DNA from: Symmachiella macrocystis
Lineage (GTDB): Bacteria; Planctomycetota; Planctomycetia; Planctomycetales; Planctomycetaceae
Direction: 5' to 3'
Length of the DNA stretch: 64,000 nt
NCBI RefSeq assembly: GCF_007860075.1
Contig: NZ_SJPP01000001.1
Location: forward strand, 310,001-374,000
Shown here: positions 2,462 to 64,000 of the stretch, one piece after another
Layout of the letters: the number at the start of each line of letters is the position of its first letter
Position numbering within the stretch: position 1 is the first letter of the stretch
The notes under the pieces: model-generated
Databases searched by the model: none
What the model was told of the DNA's origin: nothing
What the model saw: the letters and a program-made list of their open reading frames with translations, nothing else
Made by a program: the position numbers and the translations under genes

Positions 2462-4448
<1,987 letters not shown>

Positions 4449-4529
4449 ATTTTTAGTAGGCAGTCGGCGGAAGACAGTAGGCAGAAGTGAGTGGCCGGTG
4501 GTTAGTGGCCAGTGGCCAGAAAGGTGTAG

Positions 4530-4547
4530 GTCAGGCTCCCGCCTGAC
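4530..4547. terminator. Hairpin downstream of eno
   Basis: GTCAGGC-tccc-GCCTGAC is a perfect 7-bp stem with a 4-base loop, 80 bases after the eno stop. It has no following T-run, so it may be a processing or stability hairpin rather than an intrinsic terminator. A similar stem with the same tccc loop (CAGAC/GTCTG) lies at about 10766-10779, between hemC and the PhyH gene, hinting at a dispersed hairpin family. Confidence 0.4.
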
Positions 4548-4615
4548 GCGCACCACATTTGGTTCTCCACTCCTAACCCTACCGTCTAAAGCCGACAGCC
4601 TAAGGCCTAACCCGA

Positions 4616-5119
4616 ATGAAAGTCGCATTCGAACAACGGACGAACTTGGAGCAGAGCTGGGTGCCCTCGATGGCATTCTGGCTCTGCTTGTTCGTAGCTG
4701 CTGCGCTGTTTGCGATTCCATTTCTGGCCCCCAAACTGCTCGCGCACGCGCGACTCAGTAGCCGGCATGACGACAATCAGGCCCAATTGATCACGCTTAG
4801 CGAGCATTGCGAACATTTAAAAATCGTGCAGGATGCGCTGCAAAGCGATCCCGGTTTTCAAGCAGAGTTGGCCCGCATCGAATTCGACGCGGTCAATCCA
4901 GCCGAACAACGCATCCCGGTCGGCAACGGCCTCACGCTCAACGCCATCGCCGCCGCCCCGATTCCCACGCCGCCGGGCAACACCCTGGCTTGGTACACAC
5001 CGCTGCTGGAATTTCTGACCAACAACCAATCCTACACAGACTGCATGCTGGCCTTCGCAGCCGTGTTAGTGATGTACGGTTTCATCGGCCTGCACCGCCC
5101 GGTCGCATCGCGCATGTAG
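4616..5119 (+). CDS. Membrane protein with DivIC/FtsB-like (septum formation initiator) segment
   Basis: A 167-residue protein. Residues ~18-42 form a transmembrane helix; 52-80 look like a short coiled coil; 78-102 (DPGFQAELARIEFDAVNPAE) resemble the DivIC/FtsB motif 'DP.yiE..AReeLg.v.pgE'. A second hydrophobic helix (~143-160) closes the protein, which FtsB and DivIC do not have. Position directly after eno matches the eno-ftsB order of many bacteria. From this I infer a distant septum-initiator relative; that is notable because planctomycetes lack FtsZ. A decayed copy of residues ~114-167 lies at 35485-35650. No strong ribosome site is visible before the ATG. The functional inference is moderate; the membrane topology is clear. 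Confidence 0.6.
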   Translation: MKVAFEQRTNLEQSWVPSMAFWLCLFVAAALFAIPFLAPKLLAHARLSSRHDDNQAQLITLSEHCEHLKIVQDALQSDPGFQAELARIEFDAVNPAEQRIPVGNGLTLNAIAAAPIPTPPGNTLAWYTPLLEFLTNNQSYTDCMLAFAAVLVMYGFIGLHRPVASRM

Positions 5120-35700: not shown

Positions 35701-36945
35701 TTATTCGCCGGGGAAGGCGGAGAGGACGCGGTTCATTTCTTCGTAGCTGGTTTGTCCGGCGATGACTTTGCGGGACGCAGCCATTTCCAGGGTTTCCATC
35801 CCCTTTTCTTTGGCGATTTGCAGAATGTCGAGTCGTGGTTTGTGATGCAGGACGGCGCGGCGGAGGTCGGCATCCATGCCCAGGACTTCGAAGACGGCGG
35901 TCCGTCCGAGGTAACCGGTGCCAAAACAGGTATCGCAGCCGGTGCCTTTGAAGATTTCCACCGTACCGGCGGCTGCTGGGTCAAGTCCCAGGATTTCGCA
36001 TTGCGGTTCGTCAGGCTGGTAGGCGACCTTGCAGTTTTGGCAGATTTTTCGCAGCAGACGTTGCGTGACGACGCAATACACAGAATCGGCGATCACCATC
36101 GGTGGGACATTGAAACCACGAAGCACGTCGAACGTGGAGGTGGTGTCATTGGCGTGGAGCGTGCTGAGGACCAATGTTCCCGCCAGTCCGGCGCGCGAAC
36201 CGATTTGCGCGGTTTCGGGGTCGCGAATTTCGCCGATCATGAGCACGTCGGGATCTTGCCGCAATAACATTCGTAGAGCGCGAGCGAAGGTGAAATCGAT
36301 TTGTGTATTGATCTGCGTCTGATTGATACCGTCCATCCGGCGTTCCACCGGGTCTTCGATTGTGCAGATCGACTTGCTGGGATCGTTTAATTCGTCGAGG
36401 CAACCGTACATGGTGGTACTCTTGCCCGCTCCGACGGGGCCGACCGTGAGAATCATACCGTAAGGAATGTTCAGGAACCGTTTGAGCATGGGGAGTTGCG
36501 CATCATCGAAGCCGAGATCGTCTAAGCGGTGGAATGCCTGTTCGCCGGGCATCAAACGCATCACGACTCGTTCGCCGTAATTCGTGGGTCCACAGGCGAC
36601 GCGGATATCGCGCTGGGTGCCCATGACCAGATTGGAAATGTGGCCGTCCTGCGGCAGACGTTTCTCGGTGATATCCATGCCGCCCATCAACTTGATGCGT
36701 GAGATCATGTGCGCGGCCTGGGCCGCAGGGACGTGCAAAATGGCGTGCAACAGGCCATCGACGCGGAGCCGGATGCGGATTCCGTTTTCGTCGGGATCGA
36801 AGTGGACATCGGTGGCGTTGAGTTGAAAGGCACGTTCGAGCAGCAAATCGACCAATGGACCGGGGCCGACAACATCCACCAACTCGCCTAATTCTTGCTG
36901 CAAGGCCTTTTGGCGAATGTCGCGTTCTTTACTTTTGGAATCCAT
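35701..36945 (-). CDS. GspE/PilB-PilT type secretion/pilus ATPase
   Basis: 414 residues. Walker A GPVGAGKST (169-177), the Asp box IEDPVERR, Walker B VLMIGEIRD, His box LVLSTLHANDT and a C-terminal zinc pair (CQNC ... CDTC) identify a type II secretion/type IV pilus hexameric ATPase. The N-terminal GspE_N domain that docks PilM/GspL is missing; only a short helical segment precedes the N2 domain (ATDVHFDP). ATG 36945 has GGGAG 9 bases upstream. No pilus genes are adjacent, so it may serve a dispersed T2S/T4P system. Confidence 0.9.
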   Translation of the reverse strand: MDSKSKERDIRQKALQQELGELVDVVGPGPLVDLLLERAFQLNATDVHFDPDENGIRIRLRVDGLLHAILHVPAAQAAHMISRIKLMGGMDITEKRLPQDGHISNLVMGTQRDIRVACGPTNYGERVVMRLMPGEQAFHRLDDLGFDDAQLPMLKRFLNIPYGMILTVGPVGAGKSTTMYGCLDELNDPSKSICTIEDPVERRMDGINQTQINTQIDFTFARALRMLLRQDPDVLMIGEIRDPETAQIGSRAGLAGTLVLSTLHANDTTSTFDVLRGFNVPPMVIADSVYCVVTQRLLRKICQNCKVAYQPDEPQCEILGLDPAAAGTVEIFKGTGCDTCFGTGYLGRTAVFEVLGMDADLRRAVLHHKPRLDILQIAKEKGMETLEMAASRKVIAGQTSYEEMNRVLSAFPGE

Positions 36946-37240: not shown

Positions 37241-38014
37241 TCACTTGTCTTTTTTGTCGCTGTCGAGTCGGTCTATTCTTAATTGTGGCTTGGGGGTCTG
37301 CTCGGTAGCATCCGCCGCGGCGGCAGCATCGGAATCTACGACGGGCGGAGCAGCATTTGCGGCAGACAGTTGTTGGAACCCACCTACGCTGACTGCGAGG
37401 CCAACGAGGAGAATTAGCCCGCCGACAATCCGCGCAGCGCCGGCATTGCGGACTAACGTCAAGCCGCTGATAACAACAGCAACGGCCGCCAGCGCGAATA
37501 GCACGTACACCGATTGTTTGGCGTCGTTGAAGAGAGGGTCGCCGGAGTGTGTGGTCCACCAAACCCAACCGGCGGCTACTGCTGCAATCAGAGCGATGAT
37601 TGGTCCGGTCCAAGAGGCTTCTGCAGGTCCATTCTGTGAAGTCGGAGGCGCGTGCTTCATGGCGCCGATGGCCTCATCGCGCGTGGGGACGACGTCCCAT
37701 AGAGAATTGAGTCCGGCGATGCTCAAGACCTCCGTGACCATTTTCTGTTCGCTTTGGACGACCATTCTACCGTTTTTCTTTTGAACGGCTTTCCAGAGCC
37801 TGACGAGCAGCGCGACCATTGAACTACCCATGTAGTCCAATGCCGAGAGGTCGACCAGGAGTGCGGGGGACCGCAGGGCATCCAAATCGGGAATAATTTC
37901 GTTACCGACCTGTTGAACGTCGCCCCACTGGACTTCGTTCAGCTTAGGCAAGAGGCACAGGACAACGTACCCTCGTGTTTTTTCGAGAGTATAAGGGGCA
38001 TCGCTGGTCGACAC
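37241..38014 (-). CDS. STAS-domain protein with C-terminal membrane helices
   Basis: 257 residues from GTG 38014 (GGAGAG 5 bases upstream); a TTG eight codons earlier is the only other option. Residues ~10-110 form a STAS domain (LLVDLSALDYMGSSMVALLVRL; Ser after 'YMG' is the site phosphorylated in anti-anti-sigma proteins). After a linker come three hydrophobic helices (IIALIAAVAAGWVWW, VLFALAAVAVVISGLTL, GGLILLVGLAVSVGGF) and an acidic tail. A STAS-first, membrane-last order is unusual; it may sequester an anti-sigma partner at the membrane. It lies 295 bp upstream of the ATPase gene on the same strand. Confidence 0.78.
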   Translation of the reverse strand: MSTSDAPYTLEKTRGYVVLCLLPKLNEVQWGDVQQVGNEIIPDLDALRSPALLVDLSALDYMGSSMVALLVRLWKAVQKKNGRMVVQSEQKMVTEVLSIAGLNSLWDVVPTRDEAIGAMKHAPPTSQNGPAEASWTGPIIALIAAVAAGWVWWTTHSGDPLFNDAKQSVYVLFALAAVAVVISGLTLVRNAGAARIVGGLILLVGLAVSVGGFQQLSAANAAPPVVDSDAAAAADATEQTPKPQLRIDRLDSDKKDK

Positions 38015-38038
38015 GTGGATCTCTCCGAGGTTGTTCAA

Positions 38039-38785
38039 GAAGTGGTCAAAAAGACAGCCCTGGACCGGCCGGGTAGCCCGTGGCAGTGCCTTTCAAATCA
38101 AACCCGTAGCGAACGCAGACTTTATCGATGTGTGAAGACTCGTCGATAATGACAATCATGCCATTTCCGCGAGCCACGCGTTCCTGTGGCCGTTCAGGAT
38201 AACAACTTCCCCGTCATTCGTCAGCTAAGTGCAGCCTGCGATTGAACGGTGCCGATAGTGATTACGTGTCATGTGAGTGAAAACGAGGCTAGCACACGAG
38301 TCCCCCCCACGCGCCAGCGAAGTGTTGAGACTCGCAGACAAAGTGTTTCCCGCTATTTTGCACGAGTTGGCACAAAATATCCAAGCATTATTATGGTTTT
38401 CCCGCGACTTCGCTACAAATTCAGCCACAAAACAGGGGCGTGGGGCCTGTTGGAATTGTGAAGGAAAGGCGAAGTTGGTCCGGTCGTGTTGGTTATGGCG
38501 GCCACACGGGATGGCGGAGACAGGTACAGGGACGTTTGGGGGAATCCGGTAAGATATGCTTTTCTGATTGACATCCGTTTTTTTCGATCCGTATACTAAA
38601 GACTGAATCGCATGGCCGTAAATAAAAGTCTCTCGCATTACGGCGGAGCGTGCGAATGAAAGTCTCAACAGTGAAATCTGCCGTTCAATCAGCGTAGCTA
38701 TTGTTTTGAACTAAAAAACTGGCGCCCCCTTTTCGCGGGTGTGTGTCGGCGACAAAAGGTTATAGGCTCGGAAAGGTTCGTTTTG
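38039..38785. other. Divergent intergenic region upstream of the coiled-coil cluster
   Basis: About 750 bp between the minus-strand STAS gene and the plus-strand coiled-coil genes. It holds the best sigma-70-like promoter of the window (38568-38597, separate entry). A minus-strand open frame (38225-38668) lacks any domain and has unlikely composition. Confidence 0.45.
38568..38597 (+). promoter_or_regulatory. Sigma-70-like promoter for the coiled-coil cluster
   Basis: TTGACA at 38568-38573 and TATACT at 38592-38597 are separated by 18 bases and point towards the gene starting at 38786, with a leader of ~180 bases. The -35 is a full consensus match and the -10 has one mismatch. Confidence 0.5.
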
Positions 38786-39334
38786 ATGACAAAATTGGGG
38801 AAAAGCCTGGTCGTCTTTCTGGCGTTTGCCAGTGTGGCATTCATGGGCTTTGCCGCCGTGACGTCATTGGGCAGCACGAATTGGAAGACGTTTCTTACTG
38901 AAAAACGGGTCGACCGCGGCACGATGACCTATGCGGAGAAGGTCAAAGCCCAGGAAGACGAATTGCGTCAGTTGCGGGAAGAGTTCCAAGCCGCCGAAGC
39001 CGCCTTAAAAGATGCCAAAGCAACACGTGAGGCAGATACCGCCGCGATCATCGCACGCGAAGCCGCACTGGTCGCAGCGGTTGAAGAGTTGAATGGGCAA
39101 GTCATTGCGGCGACCAAAGAAGCCACGGTCACCGGCAACAAGGTGATCGACATTAAAAATCAAACGACCGACCGGCACGAAGAAGTGGTCCGCATGCAAA
39201 ATCAGTTGAAAGAACTTCGTTCACAAATTGAAATCGCCCGTGAGGAAGACCGACGACTTGCAGACCGAGTCATCCAAGCCAAAGAATTATTGAAATCCAC
39301 CCAACGGCGAAACGAGAGACTGAAAAACAATTAG
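38786..39334 (+). CDS. Membrane-anchored coiled-coil protein (TNWK family), copy 1
   Basis: 182 residues. A single N-terminal transmembrane helix (KSLVVFLAFASVAFMGFAAV) ends in STNWK; the remainder is nearly all charged coiled coil (e.g. QEDELRQLREEFQAAEAALKD and REEDRRLADRVIQAKEL). It shares the N-terminal pattern GKxLVV..(x)SV.FM.FA...TNWK with the next gene and is clearly its paralog, but lacks that gene's C-terminal beta domain. Probably an envelope structural or tethering protein. Start is ATG 38786; an upstream GTG would add 15 residues before the membrane helix. Confidence 0.75.
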   Translation: MTKLGKSLVVFLAFASVAFMGFAAVTSLGSTNWKTFLTEKRVDRGTMTYAEKVKAQEDELRQLREEFQAAEAALKDAKATREADTAAIIAREAALVAAVEELNGQVIAATKEATVTGNKVIDIKNQTTDRHEEVVRMQNQLKELRSQIEIAREEDRRLADRVIQAKELLKSTQRRNERLKNN

Positions 39335-39546
39335 CCGTACGGTGGCGTCCTGCGGGACGACAGTTCAGAAGAAACAGACTTTAAAAAACAGACTTTGCCG
39401 GACAGTGTCGGCAATCCCCAGGTGAAGAAAACGTTTAGTATAAGGGGGGCCTCGTCACGAGCTGACGATCCAAGGGGCCATCCCAATCTCTTCACCCGTT
39501 ATCTCATGCAATTTTAGTCAGCGCAACTTTCGAGGGAGCCACCTCC

Positions 39547-40389
39547 ATGTCGTTCGTTGGAAAACTGTTAGTCGTGTTGCAGGTCGTGTTGAGCGTCTGT
39601 TTCATGGCGTTCGCCGGTGCGGTCTTTGCGACGCATACGAACTGGAAACAGGAAAACGCAGCTACCCAAGCCAAATTGGAGTCTAAGACGAATCAAATGA
39701 CTGCGCTTCAGAACCGTTTTGAGCAGTTAGATGCTGAAACGGAAAAGCTGACGGCGGAATTAGAAAAAGAGCGAGACACGCTTGTCGCTGAAGTCCAAAA
39801 TTTGACGAATGAAAATAATCAATACAAATCCCGTCAAAACGACCATGAAAACCACGCCAATGTGGCCCAGGAGCAAACACGGATCGCACTGAAGCACGCC
39901 GAAAACCGGACCAACGAAGCGGTCACGCTGCGAAAAGAAAACAAGCAGATTACCGATTCACGCCATGAAGAACTGAAGGAACGGTTACGTCTGGAAGTCG
40001 AGCTCACGGCCGAGAAGGAGAAAACGACTCTGCTGAATGAAACGCTGAAAGGTCAATTGCGTGACATCGCTCAACTCAAATCGGCGTTACGCCGGGCCGG
40101 CCTGTCGGACACACCGGGACCGATTGCACAAGCTCCCCCGCAAGATGTTGATGGTCGTGTGCGACGCGTAAAGAAAAATCGTCGCGGCACTGTTGACCTA
40201 GTGGAAGTGAACATCGGCTCGGACGATGGCTTGATCAAGGGACACACTTTAACCGTCTATCGAGGCGGCAAATACCTCGGTGAACTAAGAATTGTAGAAA
40301 CATCGACTGATATGGCTGTCGCGGAAGTGCTGTCGACTGCCAAAATCGGACTGATTCAGGAGGGGGACAATGTCACCACGAAGCTCTAG
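39547..40389 (+). CDS. Membrane-anchored coiled-coil protein (TNWK family) with C-terminal beta domain, copy 2
   Basis: 280 residues. Transmembrane helix (KLLVVLQVVLSVCFMAFAGAV) and THTNWKQE as in copy 1, then ~140 residues of heptad-like coiled coil (EKLTAELEKERDTLVAEVQNL), a Pro-rich hinge (PGPIAQAPPQDVDGRV) and a ~75-residue beta-rich end (RGTVDLVEVNIGSDDGLIKGHTLTVYR ... EVLSTAKIGLIQEGDNVTTKL). That end resembles the small beta domains at the C termini of MreC- or FlgT-like envelope proteins in pattern only. Overlaps the next small ORF. Confidence 0.78.
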   Translation: MSFVGKLLVVLQVVLSVCFMAFAGAVFATHTNWKQENAATQAKLESKTNQMTALQNRFEQLDAETEKLTAELEKERDTLVAEVQNLTNENNQYKSRQNDHENHANVAQEQTRIALKHAENRTNEAVTLRKENKQITDSRHEELKERLRLEVELTAEKEKTTLLNETLKGQLRDIAQLKSALRRAGLSDTPGPIAQAPPQDVDGRVRRVKKNRRGTVDLVEVNIGSDDGLIKGHTLTVYRGGKYLGELRIVETSTDMAVAEVLSTAKIGLIQEGDNVTTKL

Positions 40390-40537
40390 CAGTCGCCGCA
40401 CGAAGAAAAAGCCCCAAGGCCCCCCGCCCGAGGCGGACATTTACGTCGCCTTGTTGTTCGTATCTGTCGCCGCATTAATCACCGGGATTGGATTCTTGTG
40501 GGTCGAATTGGATGCCTACGGATTCACATCGCCGTAA
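40370..40537 (+). CDS. 55-residue membrane protein overlapping the coiled-coil gene
   Basis: Short gene beginning inside the 3' end of the previous one (20-base overlap, +1 frame). ATG 40370 follows CAGGAGGGGGACA, the strongest ribosome site in this cluster. The product has a basic Ser/Arg/Lys start (SSSRRTKKKPQG), a Pro-rich stretch and one transmembrane helix (IYVALLFVSVAALITGIGFLW) ending ...GFTSP. A perfect intrinsic terminator follows 22 bases later, so the three genes form one transcription unit. Function unknown. Confidence 0.75.
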   Translation: MSPRSSSSRRTKKKPQGPPPEADIYVALLFVSVAALITGIGFLWVELDAYGFTSP

Positions 40538-40559
40538 CCGACTGACGTCGAGACACTTG

Positions 40560-40594
40560 AAGAACGCCGTTCCCCGCGAACGGCGTTCTTTTTT
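40560..40594 (+). terminator. Intrinsic terminator of the coiled-coil cluster
   Basis: AAGAACGCCGTT-ccccgcg-AACGGCGTTCTT is a perfect 12-bp stem followed by TTTT, 22 bases after the stop of the 55-residue ORF. Confidence 0.85.
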
Positions 40595-62464: not shown

Positions 62465-63508
62465 ATGCTCGATAGATTTCGCAGATGGGCCTGCCCAGAC
62501 CTGGCCATTGATCTCGGCACGGTCAATACATTGGTGGCAGTGCCCGGTGAAGGGATCGTCGTCAACGAACCGTCCGTTGTTGCCCTGCAAAAGGGAACAC
62601 GCCGCGTTCTGGGGCAAGGTACGGCTGTTGGGAAACTCGCGCGACAGATGTTGGGGCGGACCCCCGATTCGATCGTGGCCGCCCGCCCGTTGCAAGATGG
62701 TGTGATCACCGATTTTGAACTGTGCGAAGCGATGATGCGGTATTTCATGCGCAAGGCGAGTCGACAACGCCGTGGGTTGCGTCCCCGCGTGGTGATTGCG
62801 GTTCCCGCGGGAATTACCCCGGTCGAACGCCGCGCGGTTTTTAACAGCGCCGAACGCGCCGGTGCGGGGCGCGTGTATGTGATTCCAGAACCGACGGCCG
62901 CTTGTATCGGCGCGGGACTGCCCATTGCCGAACCGATGGCCAGCATGATTTGTGACATCGGCGGCGGAACGACCGAAGTTGCCGTGATGAGCCTGTCCGA
63001 CATCGTAGCAGGAACGTCGCTCAAAGTGGCCGGCGATGAAATGGATGCGGCGATTGTCGACTATATGAAACGAAATTTTTCCCTCAAAATTGGGATGCAG
63101 ACCGCTGAGAAACTCAAAATTGGTCTGGGAAATGCTTATCCGCTCGAACAAGAATTGACGCACGACGTGCGTGGGTTGGACACGATTAGCGGCGTCCCCC
63201 GTAAGGCGATGGTGACCAGTGAAGAGATCCGGCAGGCCTTGCTCGATCCGTTGGAGAAAATCATTGCCGGCGTGAAAAACGTGATTGAACAATGCGATCC
63301 GGAATTGGTTTCGGATCTGGTGGATAATGGATTGGTTCTCACCGGCGGCGGCGCGTTGCTGCGGGGTATTGATTCGTTGATGAACGAACAATTGGGAATC
63401 CCCGTACGGGTGATAGACGACCCGCTGACGACCGTTGCCCGCGGGACGGCAATTTGCGTCGAGCACCTGGCAAAATGGCGTGAAAGCCTGGACGCCGGTG
63501 ACGAGTAA
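62465..63508 (+). CDS. mreB: Rod shape-determining actin homologue
   Basis: 347 residues. Actin-fold nucleotide motifs: AIDLGTVNTLVAV (phosphate 1), MICDIGGGTTEVAVM (phosphate 2), LTGGGALLRGI (adenosine). It polymerises under the membrane to guide wall growth. Planctomycetes vary in keeping it. It is followed directly by mreC (29 bp), so the mreBC cluster continues beyond the window. ATG 62465; short leader with repeat-like words upstream. Confidence 0.96.
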   Translation: MLDRFRRWACPDLAIDLGTVNTLVAVPGEGIVVNEPSVVALQKGTRRVLGQGTAVGKLARQMLGRTPDSIVAARPLQDGVITDFELCEAMMRYFMRKASRQRRGLRPRVVIAVPAGITPVERRAVFNSAERAGAGRVYVIPEPTAACIGAGLPIAEPMASMICDIGGGTTEVAVMSLSDIVAGTSLKVAGDEMDAAIVDYMKRNFSLKIGMQTAEKLKIGLGNAYPLEQELTHDVRGLDTISGVPRKAMVTSEEIRQALLDPLEKIIAGVKNVIEQCDPELVSDLVDNGLVLTGGGALLRGIDSLMNEQLGIPVRVIDDPLTTVARGTAICVEHLAKWRESLDAGDE

Positions 63509-63537: not shown

Positions 63538-64000
63538 GTGCGACAAAAACGTTCACAAATCGCGATTTGGCCAGCCGGTCTGCTCTGCCTGGTCGGGTTG
63601 GTGCTGGCAGCATCACCGGCGTCGACCGCAGCAGCGCTGCGCGTTCCGTTTCGTGATCTGCTCAGACCGGGACAACGCATTCTAGTGGACGTGCAACAGC
63701 GTGTGCGCGATTGGCGATCCGCTCCACAATTCCAAGCCGAGGAATACGCCGAGTTGGAACAGGTGCGGCACGATCTCGCCAGCGCTGAATTGCGCGAAAG
63801 AAAATTGCTGGCTGAGAATGCAACGCTCCAACAGGAACGCGACACATTGCAGGCGGAAATGCGAATTCCCATCGCCAAGCAAGGCAGTCTGCCGTTGGTC
63901 GTCCCCAATTTGTTAAGTGCGAATGTGTTGAGCAAAAAAACGGCCGACCACCTGCGTCAAGCGGTAGCCATCGATGTCGGAAATCGCGATGCCGTGGATC
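63538..64000 (+). CDS. mreC: Rod shape-determining protein MreC, N-terminal part
   Basis: At least 154 residues, running off the right edge. GTG 63538 has GGGAG ~13 bases upstream. A transmembrane helix (IAIWPAGLLCLVGLVLAAS) precedes a ~50-residue coiled coil (EEYAELEQVRHDLASAELRERKLLAENATLQQERDTL), the MreC layout; the following PLVVPNLLSANVL begins the beta domain. Partner of MreB in wall elongation. Confidence 0.85.
   Translation, partial: MRQKRSQIAIWPAGLLCLVGLVLAASPASTAAALRVPFRDLLRPGQRILVDVQQRVRDWRSAPQFQAEEYAELEQVRHDLASAELRERKLLAENATLQQERDTLQAEMRIPIAKQGSLPLVVPNLLSANVLSKKTADHLRQAVAIDVGNRDAVD

Follow-up and report, generated by a model that had tools for sequence, protein, structure and literature searches.

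The stretch of DNA considered here is a 64,000-nucleotide (nt) window of the Symmachiella macrocystis contig NZ_SJPP01000001.1 (contig positions 310,001 to 374,000), and all coordinates given below are window positions. It carries a cassette of three open reading frames (ORFs) on one strand, referred to as gene 1, gene 2 and the small ORF, whose products are predicted to be membrane-anchored. Gene 2 and the small ORF form a pair that recurs across the planctomycete phylum, where it is tied by position to the rod-shape (mre) genes and outlives the actin homologue MreB. The elements of the cassette are as follows.

38568..38597, + strand: sigma-70-type promoter-like site, TTGACA-18-TATACT, 11 of 12 consensus positions
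38786..39334, + strand: gene 1, 182 residues from an ATG; predicted membrane anchor and coiled coil, without a barrel
39547..40389, + strand: gene 2, 280 residues; predicted anchor at residues 1-33, long helix to about residue 183, linker, and beta-barrel at residues 202-280
40358..40365, + strand: ribosome-binding site of the small ORF, AGGAGGGG, within the codons of the conserved C-terminus of gene 2 and 5' of the small-ORF ATG
40370..40537, + strand: small ORF, 55 residues, overlapping gene 2 by 20 nt; basic N-terminus and a single predicted membrane helix at about residues 24-45
40559..40591, + strand: intrinsic terminator hairpin, a 14-bp stem followed by a T run

An earlier note on this DNA had described three same-strand ORFs, including a 55-residue frame that overlaps its neighbor by 20 bases and follows its own ribosome site, with a terminator behind them; all of these are found where it placed them. 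The hairpin is missing from the list of a simple terminator scan, though the fold test supports it (-22.2 kcal/mol, z -4.47, with equal stability in 0 of 200 shuffles). The consensus-like promoter proposed in the same note is a more qualified case. Its match to the consensus holds, but promoter-like sites are not enriched in the region (2 against 1.8 expected in shuffles), so the site is not significant alone and remains unproven. Gene 1, for which a GTG at 38741 is an alternative start (197 residues), is separated from gene 2 by 212 bases. The two had been taken for anchored, paralogous proteins, and the shared anchor proves real, since the gene 2 profile matches gene 1, albeit weakly (45 bits). 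The view that the three products have no recognised function also stands: none of the three proteins reaches the cut-off of any Pfam or NCBIfam family, and the matches of the full proteins in both libraries are coiled-coil noise. Among 51 relatives of gene 2, NCBIfam returns nothing beyond one SMC coiled-coil match, and the gene 2 profile finds only coiled-coil proteins among PDB sequences (best E 0.0011, a myosin). Anti-phage defence was rejected, as PADLOC gives no match for the cassette proteins. A mobile or viral origin was likewise rejected; a viral-contig scan matched 32 stretches, none of them a relative.

Gene 2 is widespread. It is found in 144 of 150 genomes in a sample of the order (the listed genomes all coming from the window's own family), in 290 of 297 in a sample of the class, and in 248 of 294 in a sample of the phylum. 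With the window's family set aside, 208 of 213 genomes of the class sample still have it. Comparisons of gene order draw on 125 loci with distinct gene 2 DNA, 80 assigned to the window's family and 45 outside it. This assignment follows retrieval and title, not taxonomy, and the family set includes, minus duplicates, 66 loci from one contig scan whose titles are planctomycete-like or undetermined (2 Kuenenia, 2 only 'bacterium'). A gene 1 profile match lies immediately 5' of gene 2 in 79 of the 80 family loci, the remaining contig starting at gene 2, and in 1 of the 45 others. Because gene 1 is nearly confined to family loci and only weakly matched by the gene 2 profile, it looks like a later, paralogous addition at the level of the family. 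The unit described in the earlier note is upheld as a conserved one, with gene 2 and the small ORF as its ancient core. Two loci outside this pattern deserve mention. In L227 (6741-8664), a locus from outside the family, gene 2 is preceded by a gene 1-like copy and followed by two consecutive small membrane ORFs, which suggests a duplication of the module; in L220 (7469-9175), two tandem copies of gene 2 are followed by a small ORF and then mreB.

The small ORF behaves as a gene of its own. Its profile matches at the 3' end of gene 2 in 110 of the 125 loci (79/80 in the family and 31/45 outside), with 0 other matches at E<0.01 among the 19,335 small ORFs of these loci. Since a pattern from 78 loci seeded the profile, which was then iterated on those loci, part of its sensitivity comes from its construction, and it is the specificity and the codon test that carry the weight. 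In 18 independent pairs, base differences in the stretch past the stop codon of gene 2 number 97/43/201 at codon positions 1, 2 and 3, a distribution which indicates that the codons of the small ORF are under purifying selection. The geometry of the overlap is also recurrent: 68 of the 80 family loci have the start at exactly -20, as do 5 of the other 45; loci outside the family show other overlaps or short gaps between the two genes. Judged by this comparative evidence, the small ORF is a real conserved gene, for which the libraries searched hold no family model above cut-off. The hidden 55-residue membrane protein of the earlier note is in this respect genuine, and both it and the pair passed the check on conservation in relatives that the note had proposed.

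Outside the class Planctomycetia, the pair usually heads the mre genes. Adjacency to mreB was scored, at one place per genome, in the 79 phylum genomes in which gene 2 and the best MreB are both listed, a second gene 2 match in genome G374 being left out. In 68 of these, mreB lies directly 3' of the pair on the same strand, at a distance of 157-1734 bases; in the other 11 it lies on another contig, and in none elsewhere on the same contig. Among the 125 loci, 34 contain an mreB-like ORF, which is downstream and on the same strand in 33. The genes for MreC, an MreD-like protein and PBP2 come after mreB, and lnt (apolipoprotein N-acyltransferase) precedes the pair in several loci. Three of the MreB-like ORFs are divergent: those just 3' of the cassette in L206 and L207 show 37-39% identity to the MreB of the window, and the one downstream on the opposite strand in L199 shows 28%. 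These are perhaps decaying or repurposed MreB proteins.

The pair and MreB do not always occur together. Because loose matching to PF06723 found a hit in 294/294 genomes through related actin-fold proteins (HSP70 also matches the MreB model), a threshold of E<=1e-40 was adopted for MreB. MreB and FliG were scored in 118 genomes of the class sample (G000-G029 and G150-G237). By this measure MreB is present in 30 of 30 genomes of the window's family and in 9 of 88 class genomes outside it. Gene 2 is kept in 78 of the 79 class genomes without MreB, and in 19 of the 20 such genomes listed. The reverse is seen in family f62, which we regard as anammox bacteria since 4 of the 5 genomes carry hydrazine synthase. 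In all five of its loci lnt lies directly 5' of mreB, and gene 2 and the small ORF are both missing there, while lnt-mreB-mreC is retained. In one f62 genome (G546), gene 2 is weakly matched at another place (E 2.6e-6), the mre locus being without the pair. The pair is thus jointly absent from anammox loci and persists without MreB in other lineages.

The anatomy of gene 2 is that of a rod of nearly constant length between two more conserved ends. In the AlphaFold2 model, a single helix (residues 3-183) is joined through a flexible linker to a barrel of six strands (202-280, strands 202-277). Its mean predicted local distance difference test (pLDDT) value is 88.6, and the barrel modelled alone gives a pLDDT of 86.4 and a predicted template modelling score (pTM) of 0.73. 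Position 33, at the end of the anchor, is tryptophan in 110 of 125 loci. The TNWK motif stressed in the earlier note is present at this point, but it is a local form and no signature alone. Across the phylum (n=125), the spacing between W33 and G203 has a median of 172 residues, a 5-95% interval of 168-181 and a range of 165-201. Pairwise identity, averaged over 51 family sequences, drops from 0.62 in the anchor to 0.18 in the proximal rod and recovers to 0.28 in the distal rod and 0.47 in the barrel. The coefficient of variation of total length is 0.021 for gene 2 against 0.070 for gene 1 at the same loci. Drift of the rod sequence at a fixed length is the pattern expected of a spacer. An alpha-helix rises 0.15 nm per residue, and 172 residues would span about 25 nm if fully helical and extended.

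The predicted barrel is itself a common fold. Its best structural matches in VIA-align are the flagellar LPHT ring (8z5n, Z 10.8) and FlgT (3w1e, Z 9.9, root-mean-square deviation 3.8, 79 aligned residues); F1-ATPase barrels score alike (Z 9.3-10.0), and Foldseek returns no match for the barrel with E below 0.001.

Taken together, these observations lead us to propose, with a probability of about 0.5, that gene 2 and the small ORF constitute an envelope module which began as an accessory of the Rod complex and later became an MreB-independent strut. The N-terminal helix would anchor gene 2 in the inner membrane, and its helical rod of about 172 residues, possibly as an oligomer, would reach into the periplasm, where the barrel may dock on a peptidoglycan-associated or outer-membrane partner. 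The 55-residue protein, probably coupled in translation from within the last codons of gene 2, may act as a stoichiometric membrane partner beside the gene 2 anchor. In the ancestral state, the pair would have served the Rod complex from within an lnt-gene 2-small ORF-mreB-mreC-mreD-pbp2 cluster. In the class Planctomycetia it would have been freed from MreB, to be retained after MreB loss as a fixed-length strut, spacer or positioning element, and in the window's family gene 1 would have joined it as a third, shorter anchored-rod relative. The undescribed envelope system suggested in the earlier note is thus plausible. Its observations hold and its interpretation is partly supported, the mre gene context having been absent from it.

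Several points weigh against this proposal. In the window's family, mreB adjoins the pair in only 9 of 80 loci, the neighbors then being a STAS-domain protein and an ATPase of the type II secretion system (T2SS) kind, in 10 of 21 loci each. Location in the mre operon, as expected of a Rod-complex accessory, is the rule among the scorable phylum genomes but not in this family. Gene 2 is also not confined to genomes with MreB, as a strict accessory would be; the 78 MreB-less class genomes that keep it speak for the later independence proposed here. No gene 2 is seen in 46 of the 294 phylum genomes. At E<0.01, 15 of the 125 loci (14 outside the family and 1 within it) are missed by the small-ORF profile; 3 of the 15 show weaker matches and 12 none, although several of these 12 show a small membrane ORF by eye. 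The arrangement of rod and barrel is left open by the pTM of 0.38 of the full gene 2 model, and the N-terminus of gene 2 may be a cleaved signal peptide in place of an anchor. Finally, according to the accessible part of one study of Planctopirus limnophila (PMC6952346), mreB, ftsI and ftsW can be deleted without an effect on growth. As deletion of mreB has no phenotype there, what the Rod complex does may be of little consequence to budding species.

An alternative is a purely structural spacer between inner and outer membrane, which sets the width of the periplasm and owes its mre linkage to an old co-expression arrangement of envelope genes. The conserved length of a rod with drifting sequence, the barrel tip that is more conserved than the rod, and the retention of gene 2 after MreB loss are all in keeping with it. 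However, that many families have kept the pair at the head of the operon points to a functional connection with the Rod genes, and the Pfam scan of gene 2 shows no lipoprotein or peptidoglycan-binding domain. We consider this explanation rather unlikely.

Kinship with MreC invites a different explanation, in which gene 2 is a divergent MreC-like scaffold of PBP2/RodA that replaces MreC in lineages without MreB and MreC. Like MreC, gene 2 has a predicted anchor, a coiled coil and a C-terminal beta domain, and it adjoins mreB. MreC (2j5u) is the top Foldseek match of the whole model (E 1.6e-3, TM 0.17), and in a single comparison the full gene 2 profile aligns to MreC with Prob 88 and E 2.9e-6. 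The coiled coil contributes to this full-length score, however, and the barrel alone gives Prob 22. In a Foldseek search with the barrel only, Upf1 and F1/V-ATPase barrels come first and MreC is ranked 22, and in Pfam gene 2 has no MreC match up to E 10. The absence of MreC from the best 50 VIA-align matches carries no weight against a relation. The two proteins also differ in layout. Gene 2 is encoded upstream of mreB and MreC downstream, and the beta domain of MreC consists of two barrels, in contrast to the one six-stranded barrel and much longer rod predicted for gene 2. Moreover, a true MreC is encoded in the same genomes, as 13 of 13 family genomes score above the PF04085 cut-off. This count is at odds with the statement, in the accessible part of a 2016 paper (PMC5147048), that MreC is missing from budding planctomycetes save for one probable false positive. 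MreC kinship of gene 2 is not established, and replacement of MreC by gene 2 is improbable. Membership of gene 2 in the MreC family was rejected, given the lack of a PF04085 match in gene 2 and the separate true MreC.

A flagellar basal-body or secretion-associated role fares worse and appears very improbable. The C-terminal domain of FlgT (PF16538, of the Vibrio flagellar H/T ring) resembles the gene 2 barrel in predicted fold (VIA-align Z 9.9-10.8) and weakly in sequence, 16 of the 24 barrels giving a match with E 0.0013 at best, and the T2SSE-type ATPase is nearby in 10 of 21 family loci. In contrast to FlgT, gene 2 stays under the Pfam cut-off (the protein encoded in the window scores 15.7 bits where 27 are required), lacks the other FlgT domains and is independent of flagellar genes. 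The barrel fold is equally near to F1-ATPase barrels, and the ATPase is encoded on the other strand. A flagellar role as the leading explanation was rejected, as all 20 of the listed class genomes that lack FliG retain gene 2. Least credible of all is the idea that the overlap merely gives rise to the 55-residue ORF as a by-product of translation, leaving gene 2 as the only gene that matters. The start and ribosome site of the ORF do lie within conserved gene 2 codons and could persist for the sake of gene 2. Its conserved core, however, lies past the gene 2 stop with changes concentrated at third positions, and 31 of 45 loci outside the family have homologues, in many cases with a different overlap or a gap.

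It is still an open question how planctomycetes manage growth and division in the absence of FtsZ and, in many lineages, of MreB as well. A near-universal pair at the head of the mre genes that outlives MreB supplies named, testable candidates. Because the pair is phylum-wide, usually heads the mreB genes outside the budding class and persists after MreB loss, both proteins are candidates for the parts still missing from accounts of planctomycete envelope building, and a rod of constant length is suggestive of a molecular ruler. A bolder version makes the pair a central component, specific to the phylum, of the machinery by which planctomycetes grow and divide without FtsZ. It would be a ruler of fixed length across the envelope, which formerly acted with the Rod complex and now positions envelope synthesis in lineages from which MreB, MreC and FtsZ have disappeared; we hold this to be doubtful, though worth stating.

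Among listed papers on planctomycete mre genes, on small, coiled-coil or signature proteins, and on envelope tethers, a survey in which subscription journals were thinly covered, we found no account of the pair. The mreB-mreC-mreD genes of P. limnophila, apparently one unit, belong to the same cluster as that described here, and the upstream pair is not mentioned in the accessible part of that report (PMC6952346). A genome-wide essentiality study lists, in the portion available, 108 essential phylum-specific proteins of unknown function, and its main text, to the same extent, names neither Plim_2621, Plim_2622 nor any Plim_07xx gene (PMC10632474). The signature protein CT421.2 of the Planctomycetes-Verrucomicrobia-Chlamydiae group (53 to over 80 residues) is, like the small ORF, short, conserved at phylum level and of unknown function, a likeness at the level of description; unlike the small ORF as known here, it also occurs in Chlamydiae and Verrucomicrobia, according to the accessible text (PMC3444138).

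In the window itself, the mre genes and the divergent neighbors of the cassette are placed as follows.

35701-36945, - strand: T2SSE-type ATPase (PF00437, E 9.5e-105), divergent, upstream of the cassette; recurs in 10 of 21 family loci
37241-38038, - strand: STAS-domain protein with predicted membrane segments, divergent, upstream of the cassette; recurs in 10 of 21 family loci
62465..63508, + strand: mreB (PF06723, E 1.7e-126), 22 kb downstream of the cassette
63538..64000, + strand: start of mreC, which runs beyond the window end; the PBP2 gene is next in the genome

The full mreC ORF, as it occurs in locus L230, matches PF04085 with E 6.8e-23. Close to the cassette in L061, a MraZ domain (PF02381) is encoded by an ORF at 4271-4864, and the same cluster is present in 3 of 21 family loci.

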